A stretch of DNA of 41,204 nt from positions 1 through 41,204 of the forward strand of contig JAJZZH010000207.1 in assembly GCA_021797675.1 (NCBI GenBank). The letters are read 5' to 3'. The stretch is from Bacillota bacterium. Its GTDB lineage: Bacteria > Bacillota > Sulfobacillia > Sulfobacillales > Sulfobacillaceae. The position numbers and the translations under genes are program-made. The notes under the pieces were generated by a model. That model worked only from the letters and a program-made list of their open reading frames with translations. It searched no databases and had not been told where the DNA came from. Of the stretch, positions 12,539 to 32,255 are shown in pieces (within the stretch, counting starts at the first letter, position 1; each line of letters begins with the position of its first letter).

Positions 12539-12991
12539 ATGGGCGAAGACGAAAACAGTGCGGCGGGCCGGTTTTGGGACCGAGTCGGCCATCGCTCCGG
12601 GATCTGGCTGGTCAATACGGCCCCGGGTGGTCTTTTTTTGTACTGGGATATCGAATCCATATGGCTAGAGCAGGTGAGCCGCCATTTTTCGACAGATTGG
12701 AACCGTCTCGACTATTATGCCGCGGTAGGCGACGACGCGGGGCGGGTGACGGCCCTTCGCCGGTTGACCGCCGAGATGCGTTCGGTCCACATGAACCTGT
12801 CGAATGCGGATGGCGTGGCCAGCTGGGCAGAATGGGGCATATGGGCGGATGATCGGCGCTTTCTGGTACTGCTGCGGACGCGCTCGGCGCCTTCCGAGGT
12901 GCGGGGCTGGCCCTGGTCTAGGGTATTTGACGGCTACGGGGAGGCCAGGCTCTTAGCTCCACGCGGAGGCGAGGATTATGCCGGCTGGTAG
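12539..12991 (+). CDS. DUF4912-like protein of the glycogen module
   Basis: 150 residues. The segment GLFLYWDIESIWLEQVSRHF near 31-50 and the later SWAEWGIWADDRRFLVLLRT resemble DUF4912 proteins, small proteins often encoded beside GH57 branching enzymes; their biochemical role is unknown. A good AAAGGAG (12526-12532) precedes the ATG. Its last 14 bp overlap the start of the GH57-GT4 fusion gene, so the two are coupled and probably act on the same glucan. The DUF4912 assignment is from pattern and neighbourhood, not a profile search. Confidence 0.6.
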   Translation: MGEDENSAAGRFWDRVGHRSGIWLVNTAPGGLFLYWDIESIWLEQVSRHFSTDWNRLDYYAAVGDDAGRVTALRRLTAEMRSVHMNLSNADGVASWAEWGIWADDRRFLVLLRTRSAPSEVRGWPWSRVFDGYGEARLLAPRGGEDYAGW

Positions 12992-15704: not shown

Positions 15705-18039
15705 AATTGCGACCTTCCCAGTGATCGGCGTCGATCCAAAAAAAGGTGAATTCCAAAGCCTGCACGCCTTCGACCGCAATGTCCGTGCACCAGCACCCAA
15801 TGGGGATGGGGGTCAACTCCGCTGCTTGGAACGTGCTCCAGTCGTCGACCGTATAGACGAGGCGAGCCTTGGCCTGGGCGACGACGCGGATGGTCTTGGT
15901 TCCCGGGGTCCAATGCTGTATCTGATGGTTAAACTGCCAAAACGCGATCGGGGCGCCGGCAAAATCGGCGTAGCGGTCAGTAACCGGCTTATAGCGCTCG
16001 ACCAGCCGTCCCGTCTCTTCGGCGTAGAGCAGTTTGAGGTACTCGGCGTGCGCCCACACCAGGGGAGAGGCGGACCCCGTCGGCCGTCCTCGATAGAGTT
16101 CGCGCTCGGGGAGATCGGCGGCATCCCACACTTGCTCGGGAATCAGTCCCCCTGCGGTGGCGGCGCTTTCCATGGCGCGGAGATAGGGTTCGGCGCTTTC
16201 CCCCAAGGCTAGCGCGTAATGTCCGCGTTCGCCCGTTAACAAGGGCCACGCGCGGCCCCGACCGACGCCGGTGTACGGCTCGCCCTGATCGCCTTCACCG
16301 TAGCCGTCATGGGTGTACCGGTGCCACATCGGACCATACGGCATGTCGGTCTTCAGTCCGCCGTCGTAGGCGGCGACGGAGTCGGCAATGTGCGGATCAT
16401 CGGGCTGTTTGATCCCGTACCGGACGAGTTCCAGGAACCCCCCGTCAATGACCGCGATTTCCGGAAAGAGCATCTGGCCGCCGGGCAAGTTCTTAATCGG
16501 CACGTAGCCGCCATGAATATTGCCGCCTGCAGCCGTCTCCACGACGGGATGAATGCGCTCATAATGGCGCGGATGGCCGGCCACCGCCGTGCCTTCCTCG
16601 GTGAATGTCCACCGGTCGACGCTGTCTGCCCAGTAATCGGCGAGCTCCTCGACGAACCGGGCGGTAGCCTCCTCGCCATGTTCCCGGGCCATGTGGCCGC
16701 CCAAGACGAGGGCCGCAATCATGGCGGCCAAGGTCGAGGGAGAATATCCGCCGTCCTCCTCCCACCGTTCTTCTTGAGTCACCGGCCCGTTGCGAGCGAG
16801 ATAGGCGAGGGCCTTTTTGACCATGGGGTAGACGGGGAGATCCGGTTTACGGCGGGTTAGATGATATGCGAGATGGATGGGGAAGGCGGTTTCGTCCATT
16901 TGCGAGCCTGGCCAATACGGATGGCCGTTGAGCCAGAAATTTTGCGGCCAAGAGCCGTCGGTGGACTGACTGGCTTGCAAGAACTCGAGGGATCGCAGCG
17001 CATCTTCGGTATCGTGCAGGGTCAAAAACGCGGTGGCCGCTTCCGTCATGTCGCGCGGCCAGACCAGGTGGTAACCGCCGATATTGCCGTCGCCCGCCGC
17101 ATTGCCCCACGGAATCGACAGCGAGGCGATGATGCCCCCGGAAAAAATCTTGTCCTGGTGCGTCTTCAAGACCATCGCGGAAATGCGCTGCATACGCGCG
17201 TGGCGGTGATCGGCGGGTAATATCCCCCCAAGCCCCGAGAAAAAGTGTTTCCATTCGCCAAGGTACTGGGCATAGATGGTGTCGAAATCCTGGTTGAGCG
17301 CCAGCTGGGCCGCGAACAGCGCCTCTTTTTCGGTACGGCCGAAACTGGTAACCAAGAGTTGGGTTTCTCCGGGTCTAGCGGACCACCCGCCCGTGAGCGC
17401 GATATTGCCGTCATCGGCGCTGTCGTATGTCGCAAGCCGGCCCGTGTGCTTCAACGCGGTCCAACCATCGGACCTGCCGACATAGCCGACACTCCGTTCT
17501 GTAAAAGGCAGGCGGGCGGTGACACACAGGAAAAGTCCTGCGCGCCAGGCCAGCAACGCGGGCGTTCCATCGCGCAATTCGCGCAACGCCGCCGAATTTC
17601 CGTAACCGTGATTATAGATGTGGGGGGCAACCAAGTAATAGCAGCGGTAGTCGCCATCGGTTCCTTCGCCCGCGGCCATGAAATCGACCGTTTGCAGGAG
17701 CACGGGCAGACGAGGCCAGGTCAGCACGCGCTTGACCAGGGTAAATTTTCCTCCCGATTCCCGATTGGTGATGCGAAACGCCGGCGCGTGCTCGTCCAGA
17801 TATTCCGTCTGATGATGCAAGTCCCGCTTTTCTTCCCAAAATCCCCCGTCGGCGTCCACCACGAGCAACTGGCCGTCGCGGACCATCGCGGTGTCGAGCT
17901 GAGGATAGTAAATCTCGTTCAAAATGCCATGGGACAAGGTAAACCAGACGGGTGAAGAAGGCGAAATCGCGGTGCCGACGCCCTCTTTGTACCCTCCCGT
18001 CCAATGCGGCTCGATGCCGGGAGCTCCAGGTGCTTGCAT
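15679..18039 (-). CDS. Glucoamylase (glucan 1,4-alpha-glucosidase), GH15
   Basis: Releases glucose from non-reducing ends of alpha-glucans. 786 residues from the ATG at 18039, chosen because GGAAGGAG precedes it; a GTG five codons earlier is in frame. Bacterial GH15 layout: N-terminal beta-sandwich (about 1-270), then an (alpha/alpha)6 barrel with GGYHLVWPRDMTEAA and the general-acid Glu in ERWEEDGGYSPSTLA (about 427). The base Glu is in GGLIPEQVWD (about 635). No signal peptide is visible, so it is intracellular and suited to glycogen or imported maltodextrins. It converges on the branching-enzyme fusion and overlaps its 3' end by 26 bp (15679-15704). Confidence 0.93.
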   Translation of the reverse strand: MQAPGAPGIEPHWTGGYKEGVGTAISPSSPVWFTLSHGILNEIYYPQLDTAMVRDGQLLVVDADGGFWEEKRDLHHQTEYLDEHAPAFRITNRESGGKFTLVKRVLTWPRLPVLLQTVDFMAAGEGTDGDYRCYYLVAPHIYNHGYGNSAALRELRDGTPALLAWRAGLFLCVTARLPFTERSVGYVGRSDGWTALKHTGRLATYDSADDGNIALTGGWSARPGETQLLVTSFGRTEKEALFAAQLALNQDFDTIYAQYLGEWKHFFSGLGGILPADHRHARMQRISAMVLKTHQDKIFSGGIIASLSIPWGNAAGDGNIGGYHLVWPRDMTEAATAFLTLHDTEDALRSLEFLQASQSTDGSWPQNFWLNGHPYWPGSQMDETAFPIHLAYHLTRRKPDLPVYPMVKKALAYLARNGPVTQEERWEEDGGYSPSTLAAMIAALVLGGHMAREHGEEATARFVEELADYWADSVDRWTFTEEGTAVAGHPRHYERIHPVVETAAGGNIHGGYVPIKNLPGGQMLFPEIAVIDGGFLELVRYGIKQPDDPHIADSVAAYDGGLKTDMPYGPMWHRYTHDGYGEGDQGEPYTGVGRGRAWPLLTGERGHYALALGESAEPYLRAMESAATAGGLIPEQVWDAADLPERELYRGRPTGSASPLVWAHAEYLKLLYAEETGRLVERYKPVTDRYADFAGAPIAFWQFNHQIQHWTPGTKTIRVVAQAKARLVYTVDDWSTFQAAELTPIPIGCWCTDIAVEGVQALEFTFFWIDADHWEGRNFRIEGDAT

Positions 18040-18054
18040 AGCGACTCCTTCCAC

Positions 18055-18949: not shown

Positions 18950-19183
18950 GTGGACCGAGCGAAAATCTTCCAGTCCGGACGCAGCCAGGCTGTTCGTCTA
19001 CCCAAGCAGTTCCGGTTTGGCGGTTCGGAAGTGTTTGTGAAACGGGTCGGTAAAGCGGTGGTGTTATTGCCCACAGATGATGCGTGGGATTCCCTAACTG
19101 AGTCGCTGGACTTATTCTCGGACGACTATATGGCCGAACGTCAACAGCCTTCGGAGCAGCCACGCCGTGAGGAGCTGCCCTGA
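18950..19183 (+). CDS. vapB: VapB-type antitoxin (AbrB/MazE-like DNA-binding fold)
   Basis: 77 residues. The N-terminal half AKIFQSGRSQAVRLPKQFRF is the swapped-hairpin AbrB/SpoVT DNA-binding motif of VapB antitoxins. The C-terminal tail is acidic and polar, as needed to cap the toxin. GTG start behind GGGAGG. It overlaps vapC by one base (TGATG), so the two are translationally coupled. It should neutralise the toxin and, with it, repress the promoter just upstream. Confidence 0.88.
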   Translation: MDRAKIFQSGRSQAVRLPKQFRFGGSEVFVKRVGKAVVLLPTDDAWDSLTESLDLFSDDYMAERQQPSEQPRREELP

Positions 19184-19587
19184 TGCGGTATATGCTGGAT
19201 ACCAACATCTGTATCTATCTCATCAAAAGCCGGTCAGACCAGTTGCTGCATCGCATGCGCGGCTTGCACACAGGTGAGGTGGGGGTCTCCATTGTCACGG
19301 TGGCGGAGCTGCAATATGGTGTGTCGAAGAGCCAACAGAAGGAGCGAAATCAGATGGCACTCGCGGCGTTCTTGTTGCCGCTTGAAATCGCGGATTTTTC
19401 TGTGGACAGCACGTTGGCCTATGGAGAGATCCGGGCCGACTTAGAGAAACAGGGACGCCCTATCGGACCCTTTGACACGCTCATTGCGGCGCATGCCCTG
19501 TCCCTGCATGTTATCCTGGTCACCAACAACACGCGAGAGTTTGCTCGCGTGCCAGAGTTACGCGTCGAAGACTGGACATCGACCTGA
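19183..19587 (+). CDS. vapC: VapC-type PIN-domain toxin ribonuclease
   Basis: 134 residues. The PIN-domain acidic residues are present: Asp6 in YMLDTNICIYLI, Glu42 in VTVAELQYG, Asp98 in IGPFDTLIAAHAL, and the TNNTREF motif near 114. VapC toxins are magnesium-dependent RNases that cleave tRNA or rRNA when freed from VapB. All catalytic positions look intact, so the pair is probably functional. The module lies between non-coding DNA and transposase debris, typical for mobile toxin-antitoxin loci. Confidence 0.9.
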   Translation: MRYMLDTNICIYLIKSRSDQLLHRMRGLHTGEVGVSIVTVAELQYGVSKSQQKERNQMALAAFLLPLEIADFSVDSTLAYGEIRADLEKQGRPIGPFDTLIAAHALSLHVILVTNNTREFARVPELRVEDWTST

Positions 19588-20240: not shown

Positions 20241-20536
20241 CCGAAACAACTCAGGCCACGTATGGGGGGCACCCTGATTCGGAGTCCTCATCTATACCGG
20301 ATCGATGGAGAAATGGGACGAGTCCCAGCTCTGCAGCATGACCATAGAATTCCAACAGCGGTAATGATTTCTGGATCCATTCAAACATCGCCAAAGGACT
20401 GGACAGGCCGTATTTCGCCATGCCACAATTCCACAATCAACCTGCAATGATCTGACATTTGGCCCGCCGTTCGAGCCGCCCGAAGGCCATGGGCCGAAGC
20501 CGCCGAGTCGTGTGGAGGAACAAGGAGGAATATTCC

Positions 20537-21912
20537 GTGCCCAATCCCGAAAAACTGCACCCGAACACGTACCCCCATCGCAAAAGTCCCTATAGCACTT
20601 CGGCCGAGGAACGGGCCGCTTGGCAAAGCGCTGCCGAGGCCTGGCTCGACGGCATCTTTGGGTGGATGCCCGACCTCAGCGAACGCTTGGGACAGGTGCC
20701 CGACCCCCGCCGCCCCGCCAGTGTTCAACACAAACTGGTCGTCGTGCTGGTGTATGGCGTCTTTCTCTTTGTCTGGCAACGCGCGTTGCGCCGCGAAGGC
20801 AATCGGGAACTCACGCAACCGAGTGTGGTCGAGGCCCTGCAGGCCGCCTTTCCTCAACATCACTACCATCCTCCGTATGGACACGGTGGCACGCGTGCTC
20901 GAAGCCTTGCCCGCCGACGAACTCGAAGCGATATTACTGGGCACTGGCACGATGCAACGATTGCTCCGCAACCGAAAATTCGCCCACTGGATGGTCGAAC
21001 ACCACGATTTGGTCGCAATCGACGGGACCTTGAAATGGAGTGCCAACTATCGTTGGGCCGAAGAAGCCCTGGAGCAGCAGCATGGGCCGGAGACGGGGCG
21101 TATCAGGCCTACGTGCTCGAAGCCGTGCGGGTGGGCCCGCAGGGGATCGCGATCCCCATCCTGGCCGAGTTTTGGGAGAATGCGGTGGACGCCTCGGAGG
21201 AAAGCAAGCAAGATTCCGAGCTCAAAGCCTTCTACCGCTTGGCGCGGCAAGGGAAAGCGGCCTTCCCGCGGCTGCCGCTCACCATCTTGCTGGACGGCCT
21301 GGATCCGAATGGGCCGCTGTTTCACTTTGTACGCAACCTCCGCTGGGATTTTCTGATCGGGCTCAAGGAGGGCACCTTGCGAGCCTTTCAAGCGATGGCC
21401 CACCCGTTGTCGGCACTGGCTCCGCACCAGCGGTTGACCTATCGAGGGGGAGATCGGACCCAGCACGTTTGGTGGGTGAACGATCTGGAGTACACGTGGC
21501 GGGATCCGGAGACCGGCCGGATCCGTCCGACGGTCGTGCATTATGTCAGCTGTACCGAAACCTGGACGGATGCCAACGGGGACCATCACGTCAGCCAGTG
21601 GGGTGGGTGTCGGCCCGTCCCTTCTCGAAGCAGACGGTGGTAACGCGCTGCAATCGCATGGCCCGCCACCGCTGGGACATCGAAAAACATATTCTGCAGG
21701 AAAACCACTACGGGTACCATTACCCCCACCTCTACTCGCGCCAATGGAATGCGATGAAAGGCTTTCACACCCTGATGCGTCTCGCTCATCTGTTGAACAC
21801 GTTGGCGTTACATCAGGTCGGCCTGTGGCCGACCCTGCAGGCCAAGGGGATCGCATCGTCGTGCGCCGGGGTCGGCCCCCCTCCCTACGCCTCGTCGGGT
21901 AGGTCGGCGTAG
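20537..21912 (+). pseudogene. DDE-type transposase gene with three frameshifts
   Basis: Starts at GTG 20537 behind AAGGAGG (20522-20528). It reads in one frame to about 20856 (MPDLSERLGQVPDPRRPASV), in a second to about 21085 (ARVLEALPADELEAILLGTG, then HDLVAIDGTLKW with a likely catalytic Asp). It returns to the first frame to about 21606 (LTILLDGLDPNGPLFHFVRN) and ends in the third (RMARHRWDIEKHILQENHYG, then NAMKGFHTLMRLAHLLNTLA). The last part has the Trp/Ile/Glu of a DDE domain and resembles IS4-superfamily or ISNCY transposases. No terminal inverted repeats were identified. It is most likely dead, although sequencing errors cannot be excluded. Confidence 0.75.
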
Positions 21913-22305
21913 GCCCTCCCCACAACGGCATCGTTGGGTCGAAAATCGCGGTCAGTTCACCGCCTGACCTTGCCATTGCTTGGCCCGGGCCACTCCATTC
22001 CGCCGCTCCCTTGTCGGCCGATCATCTGGCTGGCATCATGGTAAATCGCTCAAAGATCTCCCCGCGAACCGGTCTAACAGACCCCGGTGTATCACGGCAT
22101 ACCTCGTTGGTGCTTCAAAGCTGATGCTACACAAACCCCGGATTGTAGTAGGCACTCGCAATCTTAAAATCCCCGGCAGACCGATTGGCGACGCCTATCG
22201 TAGGGAAGTGCGCCGATCGGTGAGGAACTCGCCGAGCAATGGGAATGAATATTGCTGCGAATGGGAGCAATATTCAAGCAGGAAAATTCAATTTGACGTC
22301 GAATA
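21913..22305. other. Intergenic region between transposase and LacI-fusion gene
   Basis: No gene supported. TTGACG at 22293-22298 may be the -35 of the next operon, but a matching -10 is not clear because the sequence passes straight into the palindromic operator. Confidence 0.4.
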
Positions 22306-22340
22306 CGTGATTAAGCGTTTAGCTTAATCGCTTAATCACG
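22306..22340 (+). promoter_or_regulatory. Perfect 12-bp inverted repeat, candidate LacI-type operator
   Basis: CGTGATTAAGCG (22306-22317) and CGCTTAATCACG (22329-22340) are exact reverse complements around an 11-bp centre. The centre itself contains a further CTTAAT, so a second, shorter pairing (GATTAAG/CTTAATC) is possible. It ends 10 bp before the GTG start of the LacI fusion and lies downstream of TTGACG (22293). This is the position expected for autoregulation by a LacI-family protein. Confidence 0.7.
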
Positions 22341-22350
22341 GGGGTTTGCG

Positions 22351-25300
22351 GTGAAATCGAAGAGAAGCCACGGAGTTAGCATCGTTGACGTTGCCAAAGC
22401 GGCCAAGGTGTCGACGGCCACGGTATCTTATGTGGTCAATAACCGGGGGGGAGTGTCCGAGGAAACCGCCCTTCGCGTCCGCCGGGCGATTGCCGAACTC
22501 GACTACCATCCGAACGCCGCCGGCCAATCCCTGGCAACGCACGCGGCACACGCGATGGGACTGCTTGCGCCCAGTGCCACCGGGGTTTCCGATCCCTTTT
22601 TCACCATGTTCCTGGCGGGAGTCTTGGAGGCAACGCGGGGGGCGCATTACCAGCTCGTGTTGCTGTCGCCGGAATCTACGGTGTCTGACACCGAGGCGGC
22701 GATCTTGCGCGCGGTGCGAACCAAACGCATAGACGGGGTGATCCTGCTCGAGGTGGAGCCCGACGATCACCGGGCGCGGCGCATGGTCGAGGAAGGGGTG
22801 CCCACCGTGCTGTTCGGCCGGTCGACGCTGGATTTGGCCTGGGTCGACATTGACAACCATCAGGGCGGTTTGCTGGCGACGCAGCATTTATTGGATCTGG
22901 GCCACCGGCGTATTGCCCACATCGCCGCTCCGGACCGGTTCCAGTACGCACGCCTGCGGCGCCAGGGTTACCAGGCAGCTCTGGAAGCCTATGGCGGCTT
23001 GGTGGCCCAGGTGGCGGAGGGAGACCTCACCCGACAGGCCGGGTATGACCTGGCCCGGCAACTGTTGACCAACGGCGCGCCGCCGACGGCGATCTTCGTG
23101 GCCAGTGACGTGATGGCGGAGGGAGTGCTGCAGTGCGCCGCCCAATTGGGCGTACGGGTTCCCGACCAGCTGTCGGTGGTGGGATTCGACGACAGCCCTC
23201 TGGCTCAAGACACCTTTCCACCGTTGACGACGGTCAGTCAAAACGGGTACCAGGTTGGGCAACGGGTCGCCACCCTCCTGATCGATTATCTCGCGGAACG
23301 CACCCTGGCCCAAGAACTGGTGAAGCCGGAGTTGCGAATCCGCCAGACGACGGCGGCGGTAAACTCGGAACTGCAGCAGCCGGCCATCGGCGCTGGGATC
23401 ATGCTGAAAAGGGGCCCGAGTTTCGCTTGGCTATCTCTCCAAGGGACCGTTGACCCGGTGGCCAGAACCCAAGGTGTCTACATGCAGGACACCCACTGGC
23501 TCAATCTCTATCAGGTGCTGGTGGATGGTCGGCCGCTCACTCCCGCGAGGACCTCGGTGCAACCCGACACGGTGACCATGGACTTTATCCTGCAACAAGG
23601 CATGAGCACGCGCCATCTGACTCGCGAGCTTCGTCTGCGGGAGGACGGCCTGGAAGATGACTGGCATTGGAGATGCTACGGACCTTGTCCGCCGTGGACG
23701 CTGGACTTCCATATCGCTCCCGATTTCCGGGATATTTTTGAAATCCGCGGGATGGCGACGCAGCAGCACGACGCCATTGAATCGGTCTATCTGGAGGAGG
23801 AGACGCACCGTTACCGGGGGCGCGACGGTGTGGATCGCGAGCTCGCGGTGCATACGCGTCCGCCAGCGACGGAAGGCGGCGTCGGCCAGCGACGGTGGCG
23901 CATTGGGGCTGAACAACGCCGCGGGCAGATCGGCATCCGGCTGGGGTGGCGGCAATCCCCGGCGACGTCCGCGCTGACCCCAACGGGTCACCAACCTCGC
24001 GGGTTGGACTGGCCACGCGTCGAGATCGGCGATCCGCTATATCAGCGGGTGCTAGAGCGCGCGCGCAGCGATATCGACATGCTGTTGACCGACTTTGGAC
24101 AAGGCCCGATCCCTGCCGCCGGCCTGCCTTGGTACGGCACGTTTTTTGGACGCGACGGCATTCTTTCTGCCTATCAGTTGCTCGAGTTTGCGCCCGTTGT
24201 CGCTGAACGGACGCTGGCCAACCTGGTCTCTCTGCAAGGTCGTGACCTGGTCCCTGAACGCGAGGAGATGCCGGGGAAAATGGTGCACGAGGTTCGCTAC
24301 GGCGAACTCGCCAATATCGGCGTGGTACCCTACGGACGCTACTACGGGTCCGTGGACGTGACGCCGCTGTTCCTGATCCTCCTGGAGGCCACCTGGCGAC
24401 GCACCGGTGACCCAGATCTCATCGAGCGGTATATGCCCGCGGCGGAGAAGGGCCTGGCCTGGATGGAGGCAGCGTCCCGCCAGACCGGCGACGGATTGTA
24501 CGCGTTTTATCCCTCCGGTCCGGGATTGCTCGTGCAGTCCTGGAAGGATTCATCCGACTCCATGGTCTATGGTGACGGTCGCCAGGCTCATCCGCCTTTG
24601 GCGGTGGCCGAAGTTCAGGGCTATGTCTATGCCGCCAAGTTAGCGATGGCTGAACTGTATGCCTATGTGGGCAATGAGGGCGCGCGCCAACGGTTGCTGG
24701 CCGAAACGGCAACGCTTCAAGCGCGGTTTCAGCGAGCCTTCTGGATGGCCGACCGGGAGTACTATGCCATGGCGGTGGACGGCGAGGGGAAGCCGCTCGA
24801 CGTGCTGAGTTCCGATCCTGGGCAATGCCTGTGGACCGGGATTATTCCGCCAGCGTTCCGGCCCCAATTGATCGAGCGGCTATTGTCCCCGGAACTGTTC
24901 ACCGGTTGGGGTATTCGAACCTTGGCAGAGCGCGAGGTCGCTTATGACCCATTTAGCTATCACCGCGGCAGCGTATGGCCGCACGATACGGCCCTGATTG
25001 TGGCCGGATTAGCTCGATCCGGCGCAGCCGAGGCGGCGTGGAAGGTGGCCAGCGGCCTTTTGGACGCAGCCGCCCGCCTTCCCCATCACCGCTTGCCGGA
25101 ACTGTTTTCCGGCATGCCGCGGCAAGGAGACGGCGCGCCCCTGCCCTATCCGAGCGCGTGCGCGCCCCAAGCTTGGGCGGCCGGCGCTCCCTGGTTAATC
25201 TTGCAAAGCCTGCTCGGCCTGCACGTCGACGCGCGCCAGCGGTCGATCATGCTCTCCCCGGTGCCGCAGCTGCCGTGGAAAATATCGGTTCGCGGTCTCC

Positions 25301-25464
25301 AGGTTCCGGGGGGAACGGTCTCGGTGGAGGCGGATGGATCAAGCGTCCGGGTTGTCGAGTTGCCCGCTGGGTGGACGGCATCGGCGACCAGGCCCACAAG
25401 GGAGGTGGTGCAGCGGTCACGTCCTGATCTCCATCACGGCACGCACACATTCCATTCATCTTGA
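22351..25464 (+). CDS. LacI-family regulator fused to an amylo-alpha-1,6-glucosidase-like enzyme
   Basis: 1037 residues in one uninterrupted frame. Residues 1-335 form a full LacI/GalR regulator: HTH with VSIVDVAKAAKVSTATVSYV and VNNR hinge region, then a periplasmic-binding-like effector domain ending VVGFDDSPLAQDTFPPLTTV and LRIRQTT. Residues 351-1037 resemble glycogen-debranching proteins of the GDE-N plus GH63-like barrel type: KRGPSFAWLSLQG, GVYMQDTHWLNLYQV, GPIPAAGLPWYGTFFGRDG, PGKMVHEVRYGELA, the catalytic-region QSWKDSSDSMVYGDGR (Asp733), and YHRGSVWPHDTALI. The enzyme half could begin at ATG 23401 but has no ribosome binding site there, which argues for a true fusion. It heads a sugar ABC-transporter operon and is preceded by a palindromic operator. 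Substrate and whether both halves work are unknown. Confidence 0.85.
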   Translation: MKSKRSHGVSIVDVAKAAKVSTATVSYVVNNRGGVSEETALRVRRAIAELDYHPNAAGQSLATHAAHAMGLLAPSATGVSDPFFTMFLAGVLEATRGAHYQLVLLSPESTVSDTEAAILRAVRTKRIDGVILLEVEPDDHRARRMVEEGVPTVLFGRSTLDLAWVDIDNHQGGLLATQHLLDLGHRRIAHIAAPDRFQYARLRRQGYQAALEAYGGLVAQVAEGDLTRQAGYDLARQLLTNGAPPTAIFVASDVMAEGVLQCAAQLGVRVPDQLSVVGFDDSPLAQDTFPPLTTVSQNGYQVGQRVATLLIDYLAERTLAQELVKPELRIRQTTAAVNSELQQPAIGAGIMLKRGPSFAWLSLQGTVDPVARTQGVYMQDTHWLNLYQVLVDGRPLTPARTSVQPDTVTMDFILQQGMSTRHLTRELRLREDGLEDDWHWRCYGPCPPWTLDFHIAPDFRDIFEIRGMATQQHDAIESVYLEEETHRYRGRDGVDRELAVHTRPPATEGGVGQRRWRIGAEQRRGQIGIRLGWRQSPATSALTPTGHQPRGLDWPRVEIGDPLYQRVLERARSDIDMLLTDFGQGPIPAAGLPWYGTFFGRDGILSAYQLLEFAPVVAERTLANLVSLQGRDLVPEREEMPGKMVHEVRYGELANIGVVPYGRYYGSVDVTPLFLILLEATWRRTGDPDLIERYMPAAEKGLAWMEAASRQTGDGLYAFYPSGPGLLVQSWKDSSDSMVYGDGRQAHPPLAVAEVQGYVYAAKLAMAELYAYVGNEGARQRLLAETATLQARFQRAFWMADREYYAMAVDGEGKPLDVLSSDPGQCLWTGIIPPAFRPQLIERLLSPELFTGWGIRTLAEREVAYDPFSYHRGSVWPHDTALIVAGLARSGAAEAAWKVASGLLDAAARLPHHRLPELFSGMPRQGDGAPLPYPSACAPQAWAAGAPWLILQSLLGLHVDARQRSIMLSPVPQLPWKISVRGLQVPGGTVSVEADGSSVRVVELPAGWTASATRPTREVVQRSRPDLHHGTHTFHSS

Positions 25465-25533: not shown

Positions 25534-26808
25534 ATGATGGCAAAGCATTGGTCGCATATGGTGCTCGCTTCGATGGCGCTCATGGTCGGCGGAGTTGGCG
25601 GAATGGCGGCGGTGAAGGCGCCGGTGGTCCGCCATCGGCCGGTAACGATTACCCTGGGGGGATGGGCCGCTTACCCTAGCAACAACGTGCAGAAGATGTA
25701 CACCTTCCTCAAGCCTTTCGAAAGGCAATATCCCTGGATTCACGTAAAATACCAACCGGTAGCCGGCAATTATGAAACCGTATTGAAAACGGAATACGTG
25801 GCCGGCGACGCCGCCGACGTGGTAGCACTCAATAACGGCGGCCAGGCGAGCCCGTTCATTGATGCGGGGGACGTTCTTCCGTTAAACCGGTTTCTCAAGG
25901 CGGCGCACGCGAGTAGCCGCCAGTTCTTCTCCGGTACGACGTCGTTATTTACGTACCGCGGCAAGCTCTATGCGATACCCCGGGATCAAGACGTGCTGGG
26001 GCTGTTTTACAACAAGACGCTCTTCGCCAAGGCCGGCATTAAGAGTCCGCCGAAAAATTGGGCTCAATTGGCTGCCGACGCCAAAATCCTGACCGATCCC
26101 AAGGCCCATATCTACGGGATAGGGATCGATCCGGCGGAAGCGTACTGGGGCGAGTTTGTTCTGCAGGCCGGGGGCCAGATTTTCAACGCGGGCAAGCGGC
26201 GCATGGAATTGAACACCAAAGCCGCTTTAAGGGGCTTTGCGTATTATGTGAACCTCTACCGCAAGGGTTGGGCCGCGGAGCCTTCCCAGGTGGGCGCTAG
26301 CTGGAGCGGGCAGTCCTTCGGCATCGGCCGGGTGGCCATGACCATTGAGGGCGGTTGGCTCATCGGGTCGCTCGCCCAAGACTGGCCGAAGATCAAGTAC
26401 GGCATCGCGGCTTTGCCCAAAGGTCCCGTGAACCGCGACACGTTCTCCTATCCGGTCGGCTGGGCGATCAGCAAGACGTGCAAGCACCCCCAGGCAGCCT
26501 GGGACTTAATCAATTATATGACGGGACGGGGTCAGCCTGCCTGGGTCGCCGGCACCGACGCCCTGCCCACCCGCCCTTCGGTCACCCATATCGCGTACTT
26601 TACGCAGCACGCGGTCTGGACGCCGCTCGTGCGGTCGTTGCCGGTAGCCAAGGCCTGGACCTTCCCCAACGGATTCGATCAATTTGCCAATACCACACTC
26701 AACAACCAGACTTTGCTCGCTGTACAGGGTCAGGAGTCGCCGGCACAGGCTTTAAGAAATCTGCAGCGGTCGGGGCAACAGGCGTTTCAATCGCAATCGG
26801 GTCGGTGA
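25534..26808 (+). CDS. Sugar ABC transporter, extracellular solute-binding protein (family 1)
   Basis: 424 residues. N-terminal hydrophobic segment MVLASMALMVGGVGGMAA looks like a secretion signal, but there is no lipobox Cys, unusual for a Gram-positive binding protein, so anchoring is unclear. The mature part begins VTITLGGWAAYPS and has the family-1 hallmarks: DVVALNNGGQASPFIDAGDV, LYAIPRDQDVLGLFYNKTLF, AMTIEGGWLIGSL. GAGGAGG lies just before the tandem ATG codons at 25534/25537. It is followed directly by two permease genes. The ligand is probably an oligosaccharide given the neighbouring glycosidases. Confidence 0.9.
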   Translation: MMAKHWSHMVLASMALMVGGVGGMAAVKAPVVRHRPVTITLGGWAAYPSNNVQKMYTFLKPFERQYPWIHVKYQPVAGNYETVLKTEYVAGDAADVVALNNGGQASPFIDAGDVLPLNRFLKAAHASSRQFFSGTTSLFTYRGKLYAIPRDQDVLGLFYNKTLFAKAGIKSPPKNWAQLAADAKILTDPKAHIYGIGIDPAEAYWGEFVLQAGGQIFNAGKRRMELNTKAALRGFAYYVNLYRKGWAAEPSQVGASWSGQSFGIGRVAMTIEGGWLIGSLAQDWPKIKYGIAALPKGPVNRDTFSYPVGWAISKTCKHPQAAWDLINYMTGRGQPAWVAGTDALPTRPSVTHIAYFTQHAVWTPLVRSLPVAKAWTFPNGFDQFANTTLNNQTLLAVQGQESPAQALRNLQRSGQQAFQSQSGR

Positions 26809-26814
26809 TTGGTG

Positions 26815-27768
26815 ATGAAAATCAGTACGCAAACGGCTTCTACGGGGCGCGGGCGGGAGGCGATCTCCCGCCCGCGGCGGGGCCCGTCGCTGTCGGGGAG
26901 ACGGCGCCAGGACTTGATCGCCGGCTACGCCTTTACCATGCCGGGGGTATTGATTTTGTTTGTTTTTTCTCTCGGCCCGGCTTTGGCAGCCTTCTATTTG
27001 AGTTTGTTTTCGTGGACGCTGCTCAATCATATGCACTATGTTGGGTTTGCCAATTTTTGGGGCTTATTGCATTATCCGGTGTTTTGGATTGCCGTACGGA
27101 ATTCGATGGGATTTGCATTGGTCGTGGTTCCGATCCAAACTGCGGTCGCCCTAGCCCTGGCGGTAATCCTCAACCAGAACCTGCCGGCCCGGGGTTTCTT
27201 TCGCCTGGCGTTTTATTTTCCCTCCATCAGCTCGTCGGCGGTGATCACGCTGATTTTCATGTGGATGTTCAATCAACTGGGATTGTTCAACAGTTTCTTG
27301 AACTGGTTGGGACTACCGGGTCCCGACTGGCTTGGGTCACCGCATTTTGCGCTGCCGACGATCATGATTATGAATATTTGGACCACGGCGGGATCGTTGA
27401 TGATCATCTTCCTGGCCGGCTTGCAAGGCATTCCGGTCAATTTGCTGGAAGCCGCCGCGTGCGATGGGGCCACGCCCTGGAAAACGTTTCGTCATGTGAC
27501 ATTGCCGCTGCTGCGCACCACCACCTTTTTTATCGTGGTGATGGGCATTATCGGGACGTTGCAGATGTTTGACCAGTCTTTCATTATTTCCGGTGGGAGT
27601 GGTGGACCGCTGCACGCGACGACCACCGTGGTGCTGTTGATTTACAATTTCATCTTTGCGTACGGCAATGTCGGCTATGGTGCCGCCGCCACCGTGCTCT
27701 GGTTTCTCTTCATCTTGGGCGCCACCCTGGCGACCAATAAGTGGCTCGGGAAGCCGATTGAATATTGA
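26815..27768 (+). CDS. Sugar ABC transporter permease, MalF/UgpA type
   Basis: Six-helix inner-membrane permease of a CUT1-type importer, 317 residues from ATG 26815; TTG 26809 and GTG 26812 are in-frame alternatives. Hydrophobic helices begin at AGYAFTMPGVLILFVFSLG. The cytoplasmic EAA loop reads LEAAACDGATPWKTFRHVTL, the docking site for the ATPase. The start follows the binding-protein stop by 6 bp. No ATPase gene is in this operon, so a shared MsmX/UgpC-type ATPase elsewhere must energise it. Confidence 0.92.
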   Translation: MKISTQTASTGRGREAISRPRRGPSLSGRRRQDLIAGYAFTMPGVLILFVFSLGPALAAFYLSLFSWTLLNHMHYVGFANFWGLLHYPVFWIAVRNSMGFALVVVPIQTAVALALAVILNQNLPARGFFRLAFYFPSISSSAVITLIFMWMFNQLGLFNSFLNWLGLPGPDWLGSPHFALPTIMIMNIWTTAGSLMIIFLAGLQGIPVNLLEAAACDGATPWKTFRHVTLPLLRTTTFFIVVMGIIGTLQMFDQSFIISGGSGGPLHATTTVVLLIYNFIFAYGNVGYGAAATVLWFLFILGATLATNKWLGKPIEY

Positions 27769-27820: not shown

Positions 27821-28660
27821 ATGGTCGGAAGTCGCCGAGGCTGGTCGTATCGTCTTTCACGGGGGATTTTCCTGTTGATTTTGTCCTTGGGTGCCCTGGT
27901 CATGCTGATTCCGTTCGCATGGACGCTTTCGACGGCGCTCAAACCGCTCAGCCTGTCCTTAGTCTTTCCGCCCGTATGGGTGCCGCACCCGTTTGTGTGG
28001 AAAAATTTTATCGAGGTGTTTCGGCTGGTGCCGCTGGCCCACTGGTTTCTGAATAGCGGGATCGTGGCCGGCGCGGTGACCTTGGGCAACCTGATCTTTG
28101 ACGCATTGGCTGGCTATGCGCTGGCCCGGATTGACTTCAAAGGGCGGACGTGGCTCTATGTCGGCACGCTCGCCATGATGATGGTTCCCTTTCAGGCGGT
28201 GATGTTGCCTATCTACTTGCTTTTGCGGCAACTCGGACTCCTGAACACCTACTGGGGAATGATTCTGCCGACGCTGGTGTCTTCGATGGGGGTCTTTTTG
28301 ATGCGGCAGGCGTTCTTGAATCTTCCTCAAGAATTGGATGACGCGGCGATTATTGACGGCTGCGGACGGTTTCGCATGTTTTGGCAGATTTCCCTGCCGC
28401 AGGTTACGCCGTCACTATTGACCCTGGCCCTTTTGACCTTTGTCGGCGCGTGGAACAATTTCTTGCTGCCGCTGTTGGTCGCCAATCAACCCCACCTGTG
28501 GACCCTTCAGCTCGGCATCGTGGAATTCCAGTCGCAATATGCTACCGACTGGCCGTTATTGATGGCGGCGAGCTTTCTGATTACGCTGCCTATTGCCATC
28601 TTGTTTCTGATCTTTCAGCGTCGGTTCGTGCGCGGAATTGTTATGACGGGGATAAAATAG
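27821..28660 (+). CDS. Sugar ABC transporter permease, MalG/UgpE type
   Basis: 279 residues, partner of the preceding permease. Transmembrane helices start at GIFLLILSLGALVMLIPFAW. The EAA loop is ELDDAAIIDGCGRFRMFWQI followed by SLPQV. The C-terminus ends FQRRFVRGIVMTGIK, a very common ending of this subfamily. GGAGG lies at the right distance before the ATG. It sits 52 bp after the first permease in the same operon. Confidence 0.93.
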   Translation: MVGSRRGWSYRLSRGIFLLILSLGALVMLIPFAWTLSTALKPLSLSLVFPPVWVPHPFVWKNFIEVFRLVPLAHWFLNSGIVAGAVTLGNLIFDALAGYALARIDFKGRTWLYVGTLAMMMVPFQAVMLPIYLLLRQLGLLNTYWGMILPTLVSSMGVFLMRQAFLNLPQELDDAAIIDGCGRFRMFWQISLPQVTPSLLTLALLTFVGAWNNFLLPLLVANQPHLWTLQLGIVEFQSQYATDWPLLMAASFLITLPIAILFLIFQRRFVRGIVMTGIK

Positions 28661-28745
28661 CTTCGTCCGGCCGTCCGGGTTTTGGGTTCGTAGATATCGA
28701 CTCCACGCCATGCTTGTGTCTATCTATGTAAAGGAGAGAAACCGC

Positions 28746-29951
28746 GTGCCAAGGCATCGCTTTCAGGGATTCGAAACGATCACGCCCGCGGGATGGGGTC
28801 TTCCCTGGCCGCTCGGCTCCGAAACCGCGATCGACCGCTTAGATATCACCGTCGGCGAGTTGTTGGACCGGGTGCGTCAATCGGTCTACGGCTTTGTTTT
28901 GGGACTCTACGATGAAGAGGTAGGAGCGCTCCGCCACTTTTACCGAGCGGATACCCGACAATGGGGGGCATTCGACAGCGGCAATTTCTTGATGGCACTC
29001 AATTTTGTGGTGGCGGCCGACGTCTTTAACGATCCGACCATGCTCGAACGGGCGAGCCGATGTTTTCACTACGCGGTTGAACACTTCTGCGAGACACACC
29101 CGATGGCGTTTTGGCAAGGGGGCGTGCGGGATGGGCAGGAGCGCCATGAGCTCTGGCTGAAGTACACCGGAGACGCCATGTGGTTGGCTCAGGCGCTGTA
29201 CCGGCGGACTCGGGACCCGAGTCCTGTTCAGGCTCTGCAGATGTTTCACAGTTTTTGCAAGCGTGCCCGGGAAGCCGGCTACCGCTACGTGTTCGACCGC
29301 CGCCGCTATCAGTGGCGCGACGTGGGTAATGTATGGCGCGCGTTCGGTTTTCCGGTGACCGCCTATTTGGAGTTATACGAATTGACCGGAGAGGAGCGGT
29401 ATCGGCAGGCGGCCATCGACTGGGGCGGTGCCGGGCTTACCCTCCAGGCCGACGATGGCCTGTTCTACCTGATTGACGGAGTCTTTTGGAATTCCGATTT
29501 AACCGCTCCCGAACTTCGCGGCCTGGTCTACCTATGGGAGGTGACCGGGGTATCCCGGTATTTAGACGCTGCGGTCCGCTTTGCCGACCAGGTCGTGAAG
29601 CTGCAAAGAGCCGACGGATCGTGGCCGCTGGGCGTCGATCGGGATGGCGAGGTCTCGATCGCCACGATCGGCCCCGGCGACGCGCCCAACATCGCCCTAA
29701 GTTTGATTCGCCTCCACGGAGCCACTGGGGACGACCGCTATTTGGACGCCGCGACCAAAGCCGTTCGCTACGGGATGCAGCTGCAAGCGCTGCCGGGAGG
29801 CAAGTACCCGTTATGGCTGGACGACCCGCACGTTTGTGGAGGATTCTGGTCCTGGGATCCCCTCTATGATCACACCTTGTCGGGAGATCAGTCGATCCAT
29901 CACATCCGCGGGATGCTCTTTCTGGCTAGCTATCTCGACGCGCTGACCTAA
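28746..29951 (+). CDS. Six-hairpin (alpha/alpha barrel) glycosidase- or epimerase-like protein
   Basis: 401 residues from GTG 28746, preferred over an upstream ATG at 28710 because AAAGGAGA lies just before it. The chain has repeated helix pairs such as YLELYELTGEERYRQAAIDW, YLWEVTGVSRYLDAAVRFAD and LIRLHGATGDDRYLDAATKA. This points to the six-hairpin fold of GH88/GH105-like hydrolases, AGE epimerases and glucuronyl C5-epimerases. Candidate active-site segments are DVGNVWRAFGFPVTA and CGGFWSWDPLYDH. I cannot assign a specific family. No signal peptide, so it acts on the imported sugar in the cytoplasm. It lies 85 bp after the permease gene. Confidence 0.6.
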   Translation: MPRHRFQGFETITPAGWGLPWPLGSETAIDRLDITVGELLDRVRQSVYGFVLGLYDEEVGALRHFYRADTRQWGAFDSGNFLMALNFVVAADVFNDPTMLERASRCFHYAVEHFCETHPMAFWQGGVRDGQERHELWLKYTGDAMWLAQALYRRTRDPSPVQALQMFHSFCKRAREAGYRYVFDRRRYQWRDVGNVWRAFGFPVTAYLELYELTGEERYRQAAIDWGGAGLTLQADDGLFYLIDGVFWNSDLTAPELRGLVYLWEVTGVSRYLDAAVRFADQVVKLQRADGSWPLGVDRDGEVSIATIGPGDAPNIALSLIRLHGATGDDRYLDAATKAVRYGMQLQALPGGKYPLWLDDPHVCGGFWSWDPLYDHTLSGDQSIHHIRGMLFLASYLDALT

Positions 29952-30032: not shown

Positions 30033-32255
30033 GTGAAGACGGCAGAAAAGACGGAACGCTTGGACGATCTTTACGTGACCGCTGGGGATCGGCTGTATGC
30101 GATTGGGAGTCAGGACGGCGATTTTCCCCGGGTGGGTGAGCATATCCCTGGTGAGATGACGGGGATCTGGGTCCATCCCCAAAAAGTGCTGGACGGATTT
30201 TGGATAGAGCTGAGGTGGGACGATCAAACGCCCGTGGTGCCCCGGGCCACAGGATTTCAGGTTGCCCCCGGGTACACCGAACATCATTATCAGGCGGCCG
30301 GCGAATGGTCCGGGCGGCGTCGGCAATGGGTTCCCGACGGACTTCCGGCGATGGTGGTGCACCTCGCGTTTTGCAACGAGGCTCCCCGAGCCCGAACCCT
30401 CCAGTTGACGGTTTGGGTGCGCAGCAATCTGCGGCCGGGCTGGCCTGCCAATGAGGACACCGTGCGGGGCCGGGATATTTCCCGGGTGTCCTCCGACCCG
30501 CCCGGGCTGTGGATGGGAAATGACCGCCATCCGCCCTGGCAGGTTTTGATTGCCGGAACCCCGCCAGACGCTGAATGGTTCGTCAGCGAGGACGATACGG
30601 CCTTGGCCGTCATCCGTGCCGGCCGGGACCGGAGTTATGGAGGGTTTCGGTTTGCCCGGCGGTTAACCGTGGGCGAACGCGTCGAAGCGAAATTCTGGAT
30701 TGCCGCTGCGACGGAGGACTGGGACTGCCGAGACATCCATCATCTCCTGGCGAACACCTACCCCCAACCGCTTCGGGCCAAAGCACGACGGCTGCATGCT
30801 GTGAATGCGGCGAGCCGACTGCGAATTCCCGAACGGTCGTTGCAGCGCGCCTATGCCTGGGCCAAAGTGCAGACCGACTGGTTGGTCCGTGACGTGGCCG
30901 GCGTGGGGCGCGGATTGGGTGCGGGATTTCCCGAATATCCCTGGTGGTTCGGGTGTGACAACGGCTACGCCTTGCGGGGAGCCCTGGCCACCGGCCGCTT
31001 CGAGTTGGCCAAGCAAACGGTGGAGCTGCTTGCCCGTGCCTCGGCGCGCGTAAACGGAAACGGCCGGATTATTCACGAGCTCAGCGGCACGGGAGAGGTG
31101 CCTAATCCTGGAAACACCCAAGAAACAGCGCAATTCTGTCAATTGATGTGGGAAATCTTTCGCTGGACCGGTGACCGGGACTTTTTGGAGCGGATGCTTC
31201 CCTATGCGGACCGGGCCTTGTCGTGGCTGCTGGAACAGGCACACGACGGGGACGACCTTCCGTACGGCTATGGGATCATGGAAGTCGAACACCTGAACCT
31301 TAAACTGATCGACTCGGCCGTGTACACCGTCGGGGCGCTCGAAGCGATGGTCAACCTAGCACGGATCCGGGGCGATGCGGCTCGTGCGAGCGCATTGCGA
31401 GAAAAGGCAGAACGCTTGAAGGAGACCGTCCGCACCCGGTTTTGGCTGCCGGAGGCTCGGTTGTTTGGCGATGTGATTGGCTCGGCGAACGCCGTGGCGG
31501 AGCGGCTTCACCTATGGTCGGAGATCGCCGCTGGGGCGGGTCGTGCGGACGTCGCCCGCGCTTTCGCGGATCAAGTGCGATCCGGGGACCACGAGGAAGC
31601 CTACCAGCTTCGCTGGTGGATCATCAACACGCCGATGGAAGCCGGGATCGCTTCGCAAGCCCAAGCAGCAACCGCCTTGCGTCGGATGCGCGAGCCGGAC
31701 TTTCGCGCGCAGTTTGGGTTATATCTTTCGGGATATTGGCAAACCCATGTGATGACGATTTCCACAGGCGTGCAAGCCGTGGCGGAGGCGCGCTACGGGT
31801 ATGTCGACGCGTCGCTCGACTGGCTGCGTCGGATGGCGGACACGATGGACCGCCGGATGCCCGGGTCGATGTCGGAAATGTCGCCGGATTATGGGTGTTT
31901 CGTTCAGGCGTGGACCTTGTACGGGTTGGCGGTCGCGTTGGTCGAATATTTCTTTGGCTTGGCTCCTCGCGCGCATGAGCGCCGCGTGGCGGTCGACTGC
32001 CAAATGCCGAAGGCATGGTCGTGGGCAGAGCTGACGGACGTGAAGATGGCTGATAACGCGCTCGATCTTCACTACCTGCGGGAGGGACCGACGCAGTCTT
32101 TGAAGATTTCGACCTGCAAGGCCTGGCGGATCGACTGGCGGCATCCCTGGACCGTGAGCGAGGCATCTCCGGGGGCAACCCGGTGCGCGTGGAATTCTGT
32201 GGAGCTTCCCGCCGGGGGCTGGGTAACGCTGGTTCGGCCAACGTCAAGATCCTGA
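30033..32255 (+). CDS. Debranching-enzyme-like glycosidase (beta domain plus alpha/alpha barrel)
   Basis: 740 residues. Residues 1-260 look like a beta-sandwich (FWIELRWDDQTPVV, QLTVWVRSNL). Residues 270-680 look like an (alpha/alpha)6 barrel: YPWWFGCDNGYALRGALATG occupies the place of the W-F/Y-G-x-D block of amylo-alpha-1,6-glucosidases, with further barrel segments in NGRIIHELSGTGEVPNPGNT and YGIMEVEHLNLKLIDSAVYT. A C-terminal beta region ends LPAGGWVTLVRP. It differs clearly from the debranching half of the LacI fusion in the same operon, so the two are probably not duplicates in function. Cytoplasmic, substrate unknown. GTG start behind GGAAGGGG. Confidence 0.65.
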   Translation: MKTAEKTERLDDLYVTAGDRLYAIGSQDGDFPRVGEHIPGEMTGIWVHPQKVLDGFWIELRWDDQTPVVPRATGFQVAPGYTEHHYQAAGEWSGRRRQWVPDGLPAMVVHLAFCNEAPRARTLQLTVWVRSNLRPGWPANEDTVRGRDISRVSSDPPGLWMGNDRHPPWQVLIAGTPPDAEWFVSEDDTALAVIRAGRDRSYGGFRFARRLTVGERVEAKFWIAAATEDWDCRDIHHLLANTYPQPLRAKARRLHAVNAASRLRIPERSLQRAYAWAKVQTDWLVRDVAGVGRGLGAGFPEYPWWFGCDNGYALRGALATGRFELAKQTVELLARASARVNGNGRIIHELSGTGEVPNPGNTQETAQFCQLMWEIFRWTGDRDFLERMLPYADRALSWLLEQAHDGDDLPYGYGIMEVEHLNLKLIDSAVYTVGALEAMVNLARIRGDAARASALREKAERLKETVRTRFWLPEARLFGDVIGSANAVAERLHLWSEIAAGAGRADVARAFADQVRSGDHEEAYQLRWWIINTPMEAGIASQAQAATALRRMREPDFRAQFGLYLSGYWQTHVMTISTGVQAVAEARYGYVDASLDWLRRMADTMDRRMPGSMSEMSPDYGCFVQAWTLYGLAVALVEYFFGLAPRAHERRVAVDCQMPKAWSWAELTDVKMADNALDLHYLREGPTQSLKISTCKAWRIDWRHPWTVSEASPGATRCAWNSVELPAGGWVTLVRPTSRS

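Follow-up and report, generated by a model that had tools for sequence, protein, structure and literature searches.

A LacI-family regulator fused to a predicted amylo-alpha-1,6-glucosidase in Sulfobacillia, with a probable operator and a neighboring sugar importer

The window analyzed here is a stretch of 41,204 nt (contig JAJZZH010000207.1 of assembly GCA_021797675.1, forward strand) from a Bacillota bacterium of the family Sulfobacillaceae, in which a single gene (22351–25464, plus strand) joins a LacI-family regulator to an amylo-alpha-1,6-glucosidase-like enzyme. The gene has a GTG start and a frame without a stop, and it encodes a protein of 1037 amino acids (114 kDa). The N-terminal part has both hallmarks of LacI-family regulators, namely a helix-turn-helix (HTH; residues 11–55, TATVSYVVN region; 22381–22515; PF00356, E-value 2.2e-17) and a periplasmic-binding-protein-like effector-binding core (approximately residues 67–334; 22549–23352; PF13377, 3.9e-37; PF00532, 3.7e-28; Peripla_BP_3 at 178–334). 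A linker of 16 residues (335–350; 23353–23400), variable in sequence and mostly fixed in length, leads to a GDE_N_bis domain (residues 352–518; 23404–23904; PF14742, 2e-20) and a catalytic region (24004–25215; PF22422 and PF06202, with MGH1-like_GH at residues 671–909 and GDE_C at 719–945). All of these Pfam domains exceed their gathering scores. Together with two proposed catalytic acids, D733 (codon 24547–24549) and E917 (codon 25099–25101; both codons checked in the sequence), the enzyme half has the sequence make-up of a GH133-type amylo-alpha-1,6-glucosidase. The presence of DNA-binding and catalytic modules on one chain is also the structural hallmark of a trigger enzyme.

The enzyme half aligns with 7vma, the amylo-alpha-1,6-glucosidase of Thermococcus gammatolerans (5.1e-89), and residues identical to D733 (WKDS) and E917 (LPELFSG) are found there; based on their motif, we take these to be the two catalytic acids. 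All 15 aligned fusions share both acids, as well as V20, S21, T24, V25, S26, and Y27 of the HTH. The same structure is the top Foldseek match (E-value 3.4e-37) of an AlphaFold2 model built with 15 sequences, followed by LacI-family proteins (RbsR, CelR, PurR, CcpA, and LacI), many of them DNA-bound. The domains of the model are mostly confident, with a mean predicted local distance difference test score (pLDDT) of 74 and a predicted template modeling score (pTM) of 0.53. Residues 335–382 fall below a pLDDT of 50, and because the linker is unreliable, the placement of the domains relative to each other was left uninterpreted. The first-pass annotation, which was made from the sequence alone, had described a single open frame with a complete LacI and a complete debranching enzyme (GDE)-type glycosidase, in agreement with the uninterrupted frame and the full set of Pfam domains. 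Its "GH63-like" label is one at the clan level, the nearest solved enzyme being 7vma. As to the further statement that the enzyme half has no ribosome binding site of its own, no consistent Shine-Dalgarno sequence precedes this half across the scored fusions. Separate translation from an internal start was rejected, as no conserved start codon was found: the first enzyme-half codon (ATG for M351 in the window) is ATG or GTG in 10 of the 28 scored fusions and another codon in the other 18 (4 of the 32 fusions were unscorable by the motif).

The fusion is real and common to many species. Among 154 genomes of the same class (genomes, contigs, loci, and families are labeled G, C, L, and f, and the window genome is G000), 22 carry the fusion, including 18 in which one copy or more matches without a break across 95% or more of the protein. 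The fused frame is open in 21 genomes, three of which have it cut by a contig end (G092, G003, and G132). In Sulfobacillus thermotolerans (G023), a frameshift within the LacI core splits it. An even phylum-wide sample of 398 genomes, scored for at most two candidates per genome, shows the fusion only in the window genome and in G003, where the contig ends within it; the other 53 genomes that reach an E-value of 1e-80 match the enzyme half alone. In a collection of named genomes, 233 loci encode a relative. The best 80 of these comprise 28 fused loci, six with adjacent and separate LacI and enzyme genes, and 46 with an enzyme gene and no adjoining LacI. Many of the 28 fused loci belong to the genomes of the class survey, and they include S. 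benefaciens (L073), the frameshifted S. thermotolerans (L077), and three cut by contig ends. Among plasmid records, none covers 80% of the fusion protein.

The window is a single contig among the 242 of its assembly, and the joined frame could in principle be an artifact of assembly or of a stop codon lost in one genome bin. However, the frame recurs in the 21 class genomes, which include assemblies of only two and three contigs (G016 and G120), and in the 28 fused loci of the named collection. This conservation among relatives rules out an assembly artifact, and we give such an explanation practically no weight. The first-pass annotation had named relatives that consistently have two separate genes as a pattern that would speak against a true fusion; in the relatives searched, fusions are common and the two-gene forms fall into separate clades, as described below. 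In addition, the window genome has a second copy of the fusion, 46% identical to the first (G000:C64:8024–11056). This second gene (L039:7976–11071 on G000:C64) comes with two operators of its own, 54 bp apart, and is accompanied by a different solute-binding protein (SBP; 29% identity) and importer.

Both halves of the protein are under purifying selection. The ratios of nonsynonymous to synonymous substitution rates (dN/dS) were calculated for four sequence pairs with our own Nei–Gojobori script. Between the window and G001, the values are 0.129 for the HTH, 0.065 for the LacI core, 0.344 for the linker, 0.135 for GDE_N, 0.096 for the glycosidase domain, and 0.44 for the C-terminus; for the three further pairs, they range from 0.079 to 0.115 for both halves. 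It might be argued that the protein now works only as an enzyme with a defunct LacI half, or only as a regulator with a defunct enzyme half, as the frameshift in S. thermotolerans breaks the LacI half there. Nothing else in favor of this idea was found, and it conflicts with the low dN/dS of both halves in all four pairs, with the co-occurrence of operator and fusion, and with the invariance of the catalytic acids. We regard it as very improbable.

The linker measures 16 residues in 25 of the 28 scored fusions and 19 in L045, L046, and L047. In an alignment of 27 major-clade fusions (omitting L046, L014, L076, and L158), it contains no indel despite a mean identity of 23%. In comparison, of 81 windows of 12 residues that are equally variable and lie elsewhere, 14 are also without indels, such that the near-fixed length is only a hint of geometric constraint and not a proof.

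Phylogenies were inferred from 97 enzyme halves (32 fused, 12 adjacent to a LacI gene, and 53 alone) and from 71 LacI sequences (32 fused, 11 adjacent, and 28 other). The LacI set omits L014 and L076 (both partial), L157 (a false hit), and LacI pieces of at most 230 residues (including L050), and the cut-off L015–L018 are replaced by L034–L038. Both are quick trees with the Shimodaira–Hasegawa-like approximate likelihood ratio test (SH-aLRT) as the only support measure. In each tree, 30 fusions form one clade (SH-aLRT 99 in both); the two clades share 29 genes, with L076 in the enzyme clade only and L158 in the LacI clade only. The two f40 fusions instead group with the unfused enzyme (98) and the unfused LacI (93) of G129. 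These two placements suggest that the fusion probably arose at least twice. A single origin of all fusions was rejected from the enzyme tree, in which the starred branches force two changes; those of the LacI tree alone would permit one origin. The adjacent two-gene pairs form a third group (100 in the LacI tree) that is separate from the fusions in both trees, and a direct descent of the major fusion from such pairs is thus unsupported.

By rpoB, further carriers stand beside Alicyclobacillus and Tumebacillus and beside Actinomycetota. In a tree of 19 genomes, L058, L067, and L080 group with Alicyclobacillus and Tumebacillus, L068, L069, and L079 with Nesterenkonia, and L072 with Rubrobacter. 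The placement of these distant carriers suggests that the fusion gene has probably moved between lineages. The G+C contents of the fusion and rpoB loci agree within 0.02 in six of these seven genomes and differ by 0.05 in G544, which argues against mis-binning without excluding it.

One explanation for the fusion is that operon genes were passively joined in frame, leaving two independent halves and no regulatory gain. Two-gene relatives keep LacI and GDE adjacent and in the same order, such that a fusion needs few steps, and the linker is weakly conserved as well as unreliable in the model. However, at least two origins are probable, and in the unfused f39 relative of f40 the LacI and GDE genes lie at opposite ends of the cluster. 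Moreover, the fused form has been kept across deep divergence and in lineages far removed from one another. The 16-residue linker of the 27 aligned sequences (L046, with 19 residues, being omitted) points in the same direction and is only suggestive. We consider such passive joining quite possible, although we lean against it.

A probable operator precedes the gene. The palindrome that the first-pass annotation had pointed out at 22306–22340 is present as a perfect 12-bp inverted repeat, and it holds a tandem LacI-type operator (22311–22335, plus strand), TTAAGCGTTTAG C TTAATCGCTTAA, in which two 12-bp sites with a 1-bp spacer are centered approximately 34 and 21 bp before the start codon. The candidate motif TKAANCGNTTMA, which was read from the upstream regions of the loci, is an even palindrome with a central CG and thus has the sequence form of a LacI-family operator. 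In PMC4052901, a central CG is reported in the operators for 1173 of 1303 LacI-family transcription factors. More than 75% of the sites for these regulators lie 140–30 bp before the starts, again according to PMC4052901, and the two sites of the window stand at the near edge of this range.

In 27 of the 29 major-clade fusion loci, exact TKAANCGNTTMA sites stand 20–260 nt ahead of the HTH codons, and L041 and L056 have a site with one mismatch. Among the 43 sites in 49 loci, 35 precede the HTH codons of fusions; the other eight comprise four inside f2 fusion genes, three before the SBP genes of f39/f40 (L081:1434; L139:10484 and 10536), and one elsewhere. The 18 loci that lack the fusion clade have no site. 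As the motif was derived from the loci themselves, genome-wide tests weigh more. The window genome (4.06 Mb) has nine TKAANCGNTTMA sites vs. 15 for the reversed control, and three of the nine stand before its two fusion genes. Among the six sites away from these genes, five lie inside frames of at least 110 codons (frames unchecked as genes), suggesting that the regulon is local. A search of 42 genomes of the order for the tandem form with the 1-bp spacer, tolerating one mismatch, places it in 14 genomes, all with the fusion, and in none of the 23 genomes of the order in which the class survey found no fusion. It lies directly before the fusion gene at 14 of its 17 places, and the reversed control has two places. 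Of the remaining three places, two overlap in a triple array in G014 and the third lies in G011; in both regions, an SBP gene of an ATP-binding cassette (ABC) transporter operon follows. These findings make TKAANCGNTTMA the probable operator of the fusion and a candidate site for the control of sugar uptake in Sulfobacillus, a genus used in bioleaching.

The array in G014 (L223:6128–6165) consists of three tandem operators 13 bp apart; on this contig, which also carries the fusion, a second SBP frame follows at a distance of 380 bp. In G011, the tandem operator (L224:4163–4187 on G011:C3; one mismatch) precedes an SBP-permease-permease cluster with a trehalase-like GH15 frame, and the regulon may therefore reach further in this genome. 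The f2 fusions have an extra exact TKAANCGNTTMA inside the coding sequence (L027:11609, L028:8825, L029:1941, and L030:4357), over VVKRL codons and approximately 2.5 kb downstream of the upstream operator. These internal sites are possibly auxiliary operators, or else a product of codon chance in related genes.

A sigma-H-like promoter, CAGGAA-N15-CGAATA, is predicted at 22279–22305 (plus strand). The pattern CAGGAAN{15,20}CGAATA has 11 matches in the window genome, including this one, and none in the reversed control, and the genome encodes SigH (TIGR02859 above cut-off). The shorter form AGGAA..GAAT, which resembles the sigma-H consensus, is found in 13 of the 30 fusion upstream regions vs. 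a mean of 0.6 and a maximum of 4 in mononucleotide shuffles. A text search of PMC5641562 did not yield this consensus. With a slightly relaxed operator, the operator starts 1–13 nt after this promoter form in 13 of the 30 regions and 0 nt after TATAAT in seven. A repressor bound at an operator beside the promoter would block initiation.

The fusion gene is followed on the plus strand by genes for a sugar ABC transporter SBP (25534–26808; PF01547, 4.5e-38), two ABC sugar permeases (26809–27768; PF00528, 3.7e-11; and 27821–28660; PF00528, 1.7e-21), a 413-aa glycosidase-like protein with a weak GH127/GH88-type match (28710–29951; PF07944, 5.6e-7) that is kept in L021 and L022, and a 740-aa glycosidase-like protein (MGH1-like, Bac_rhamnosid6H; 30033–32255; PF22422, 4.7e-10) that is conserved in L021, L022, L023, and L081. 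A GH15 glucoamylase/glucodextranase (15679–18054, minus strand; PF09137, 4.1e-81; PF00723, 1.1e-32) is also found beside the fusions L021, L027, L028, and L030. In 20 of the 26 fusion loci tabulated, the SBP gene is next downstream, and two permeases come after it unless the contig or stretch stops first (L024, L029, L040, and L056). The importer is divergent in five fusion loci (L026, L031, L032, L033, and L073). In L081 (f40), it lies upstream, in the order SBP, permease, permease, glycosidase, and LacI-GDE. Among unfused relatives, G129 (f39) has LacI, SBP, permease, permease, a weak MGH1-like glycosidase, and GDE; ten two-gene relatives (L034–L038, L083, L086, L087, L092, and L098) have LacI-GDE-SBP-permease-permease; and eight Deinococcota and Spirochaetota loci have LacI-SBP-permease-permease-GDE. 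These shared gene sets indicate that regulator, importer, and enzyme belong together well beyond the fusion. A functional link among the three finds support in the gene order, the operators, and the trees alike.

The reading that we favor, with a probability of approximately 0.7, is that the protein is a bifunctional, autoregulated LacI-type repressor that carries the operon's own cytoplasmic amylo-alpha-1,6-glucosidase (GH133-like) at its C-terminus. It builds on what the sequences provide, i.e., the fusion, two intact modules, selection on both, a probable operator, an importer cluster, and apparently more than one origin. Without sugar, the LacI half would sit on the tandem operator between promoter and start codon and would shut off the genes for the enzyme, the sugar importer, and the further glycosidases. 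An imported alpha-gluco-oligosaccharide, or its product, would then bind the LacI core and release the repressor, and the attached enzyme would cleave the incoming sugar. We infer that the control is by repression, as well as the effector and the substrate, and that the coupling would work by stoichiometry and proximity rather than allostery. Repressor and enzyme would be made one to one, and induction would raise the repressor too while the sugar is consumed; therefore, the response should be self-limiting. A self-resetting or enzyme-gated switch is possible, and the self-resetting idea, put forward in the first-pass annotation, follows naturally from the one-to-one stoichiometry.

Several observations weigh against the autoregulated repressor-enzyme. 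The operator and promoter motifs were taken from some of the loci later tested. The f40 fusion gene has no site immediately in front of it, and the sole site is before the SBP gene 5.5 kb upstream. Five fusion genomes of the order (G118, G025, G029, G030, and G031) lack the tandem operator. A scan of 22000–22420 for sigma-70 promoters and terminators found nothing. Finally, in the complete genome of S. thermotolerans Kr1, the frameshift lies in the LacI core (L077; L033:8775–8916) and the tandem operator, with one mismatch, still stands in front. The intact fusion is therefore dispensable in this species, unless the frameshift is a sequencing error.

Alternatively, the protein may be a trigger enzyme, in which substrate occupancy of the glycosidase alters DNA binding by the LacI half and the enzyme acts as a second sensor. 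The two intact modules under selection, the near-constant linker length, and the repeated fusion of a regulator to an enzyme of its own cluster are consistent with this explanation. However, the LacI effector core is itself complete, such that a second sensor is not needed, and the model offers no reliable domain arrangement (pTM 0.53 and linker pLDDT below 50). We find this alternative unlikely. A broader proposal is that a self-terminating switch evolved at least two times, with the repressor carrying the enzyme that destroys its inducer and with glycosidase occupancy setting operator binding via a linker of set length; this proposal is tentative, and we doubt it. A glycosidase-gated switch, if true, would to our knowledge be the first trigger enzyme of the LacI family.

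Local sugar regulators of the LacI family (LacI, RbsR, and CelR) share with the fusion the HTH and effector core and the even palindromic operator with a central CG shortly before the start codon. Unlike these regulators, the fusion carries a whole C-terminal glycosidase, and many of its members have two 12-bp sites in tandem with a 13-bp center spacing. Autoregulation, likewise predicted for the fusion, is reported for 72% of the LacI-family transcription factors studied in PMC4052901. Compared with GH133 debranching enzymes (7vma and CgGDE), the fusion has the same GDE_N and catalytic domains, and 7vma has the same acids at the positions of D733 and E917, but the predicted enzyme is joined to a DNA-binding repressor and lies beside a sugar importer. 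We equate D733 and E917 with D1241 and E1492 of CgGDE. The latter two are needed in CgGDE according to PMC4837477. The two-gene LacI and GDE operons of Alicyclobacillus, Tumebacillus, Alkalicoccus, and some relatives of the window genome have the same LacI-GDE-SBP-permease-permease order. Unlike the fusion, they have separate genes, fall into a separate clade in both trees, and lack a TKAANCGNTTMA site in the ten loci searched. PutA and BirA combine an enzyme and a DNA-binding domain in one chain. According to PMC5320631 and PMC3602430, MocR and BzdR, respectively, likewise have an enzyme or enzyme-like domain together with a DNA-binding domain. Unlike this group of trigger enzymes and enzyme-derived regulators, the fusion retains a full LacI sensor as well as a full glycosidase.

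Normally, a regulator is a chain separate from the enzymes of its operon, and the two differ greatly in abundance. Here, evolution has locked repressor and enzyme one to one, probably at least two times and in different phyla, together with an operator. The fusion thus offers a natural system for asking whether a switch becomes sharper or is reset when its repressor is tied to an enzyme that may remove the inducer, and the two-gene relatives can serve as controls. No description of a LacI-glycosidase fusion is present among the full-text literature matches listed, a set with most subscription papers outside its coverage, in line with the first-pass view that no regulator of this architecture is known. 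The main text of the S. thermotolerans genome report (PMC6803676) names a GDE and does not contain "LacI," and the first 300,000 characters of PMC11046441 include GH133 without "LacI."

Elsewhere in the window, long overlapping frames occupy both strands at 20459–21912; two plus-strand frames were tested and have no Pfam match, and the region is perhaps a decayed mobile element. A PIN-domain protein (PF01850), which we take to be VapC-like, is encoded at 19183–19587 (plus strand). Finally, the gene at 12978–15704 (plus strand) is a second sugar-enzyme fusion in the window: its single frame of 908 aa joins a GH57 branching-enzyme module (with BE_C) to a GT4-type glycosyltransferase on the C-terminal side.

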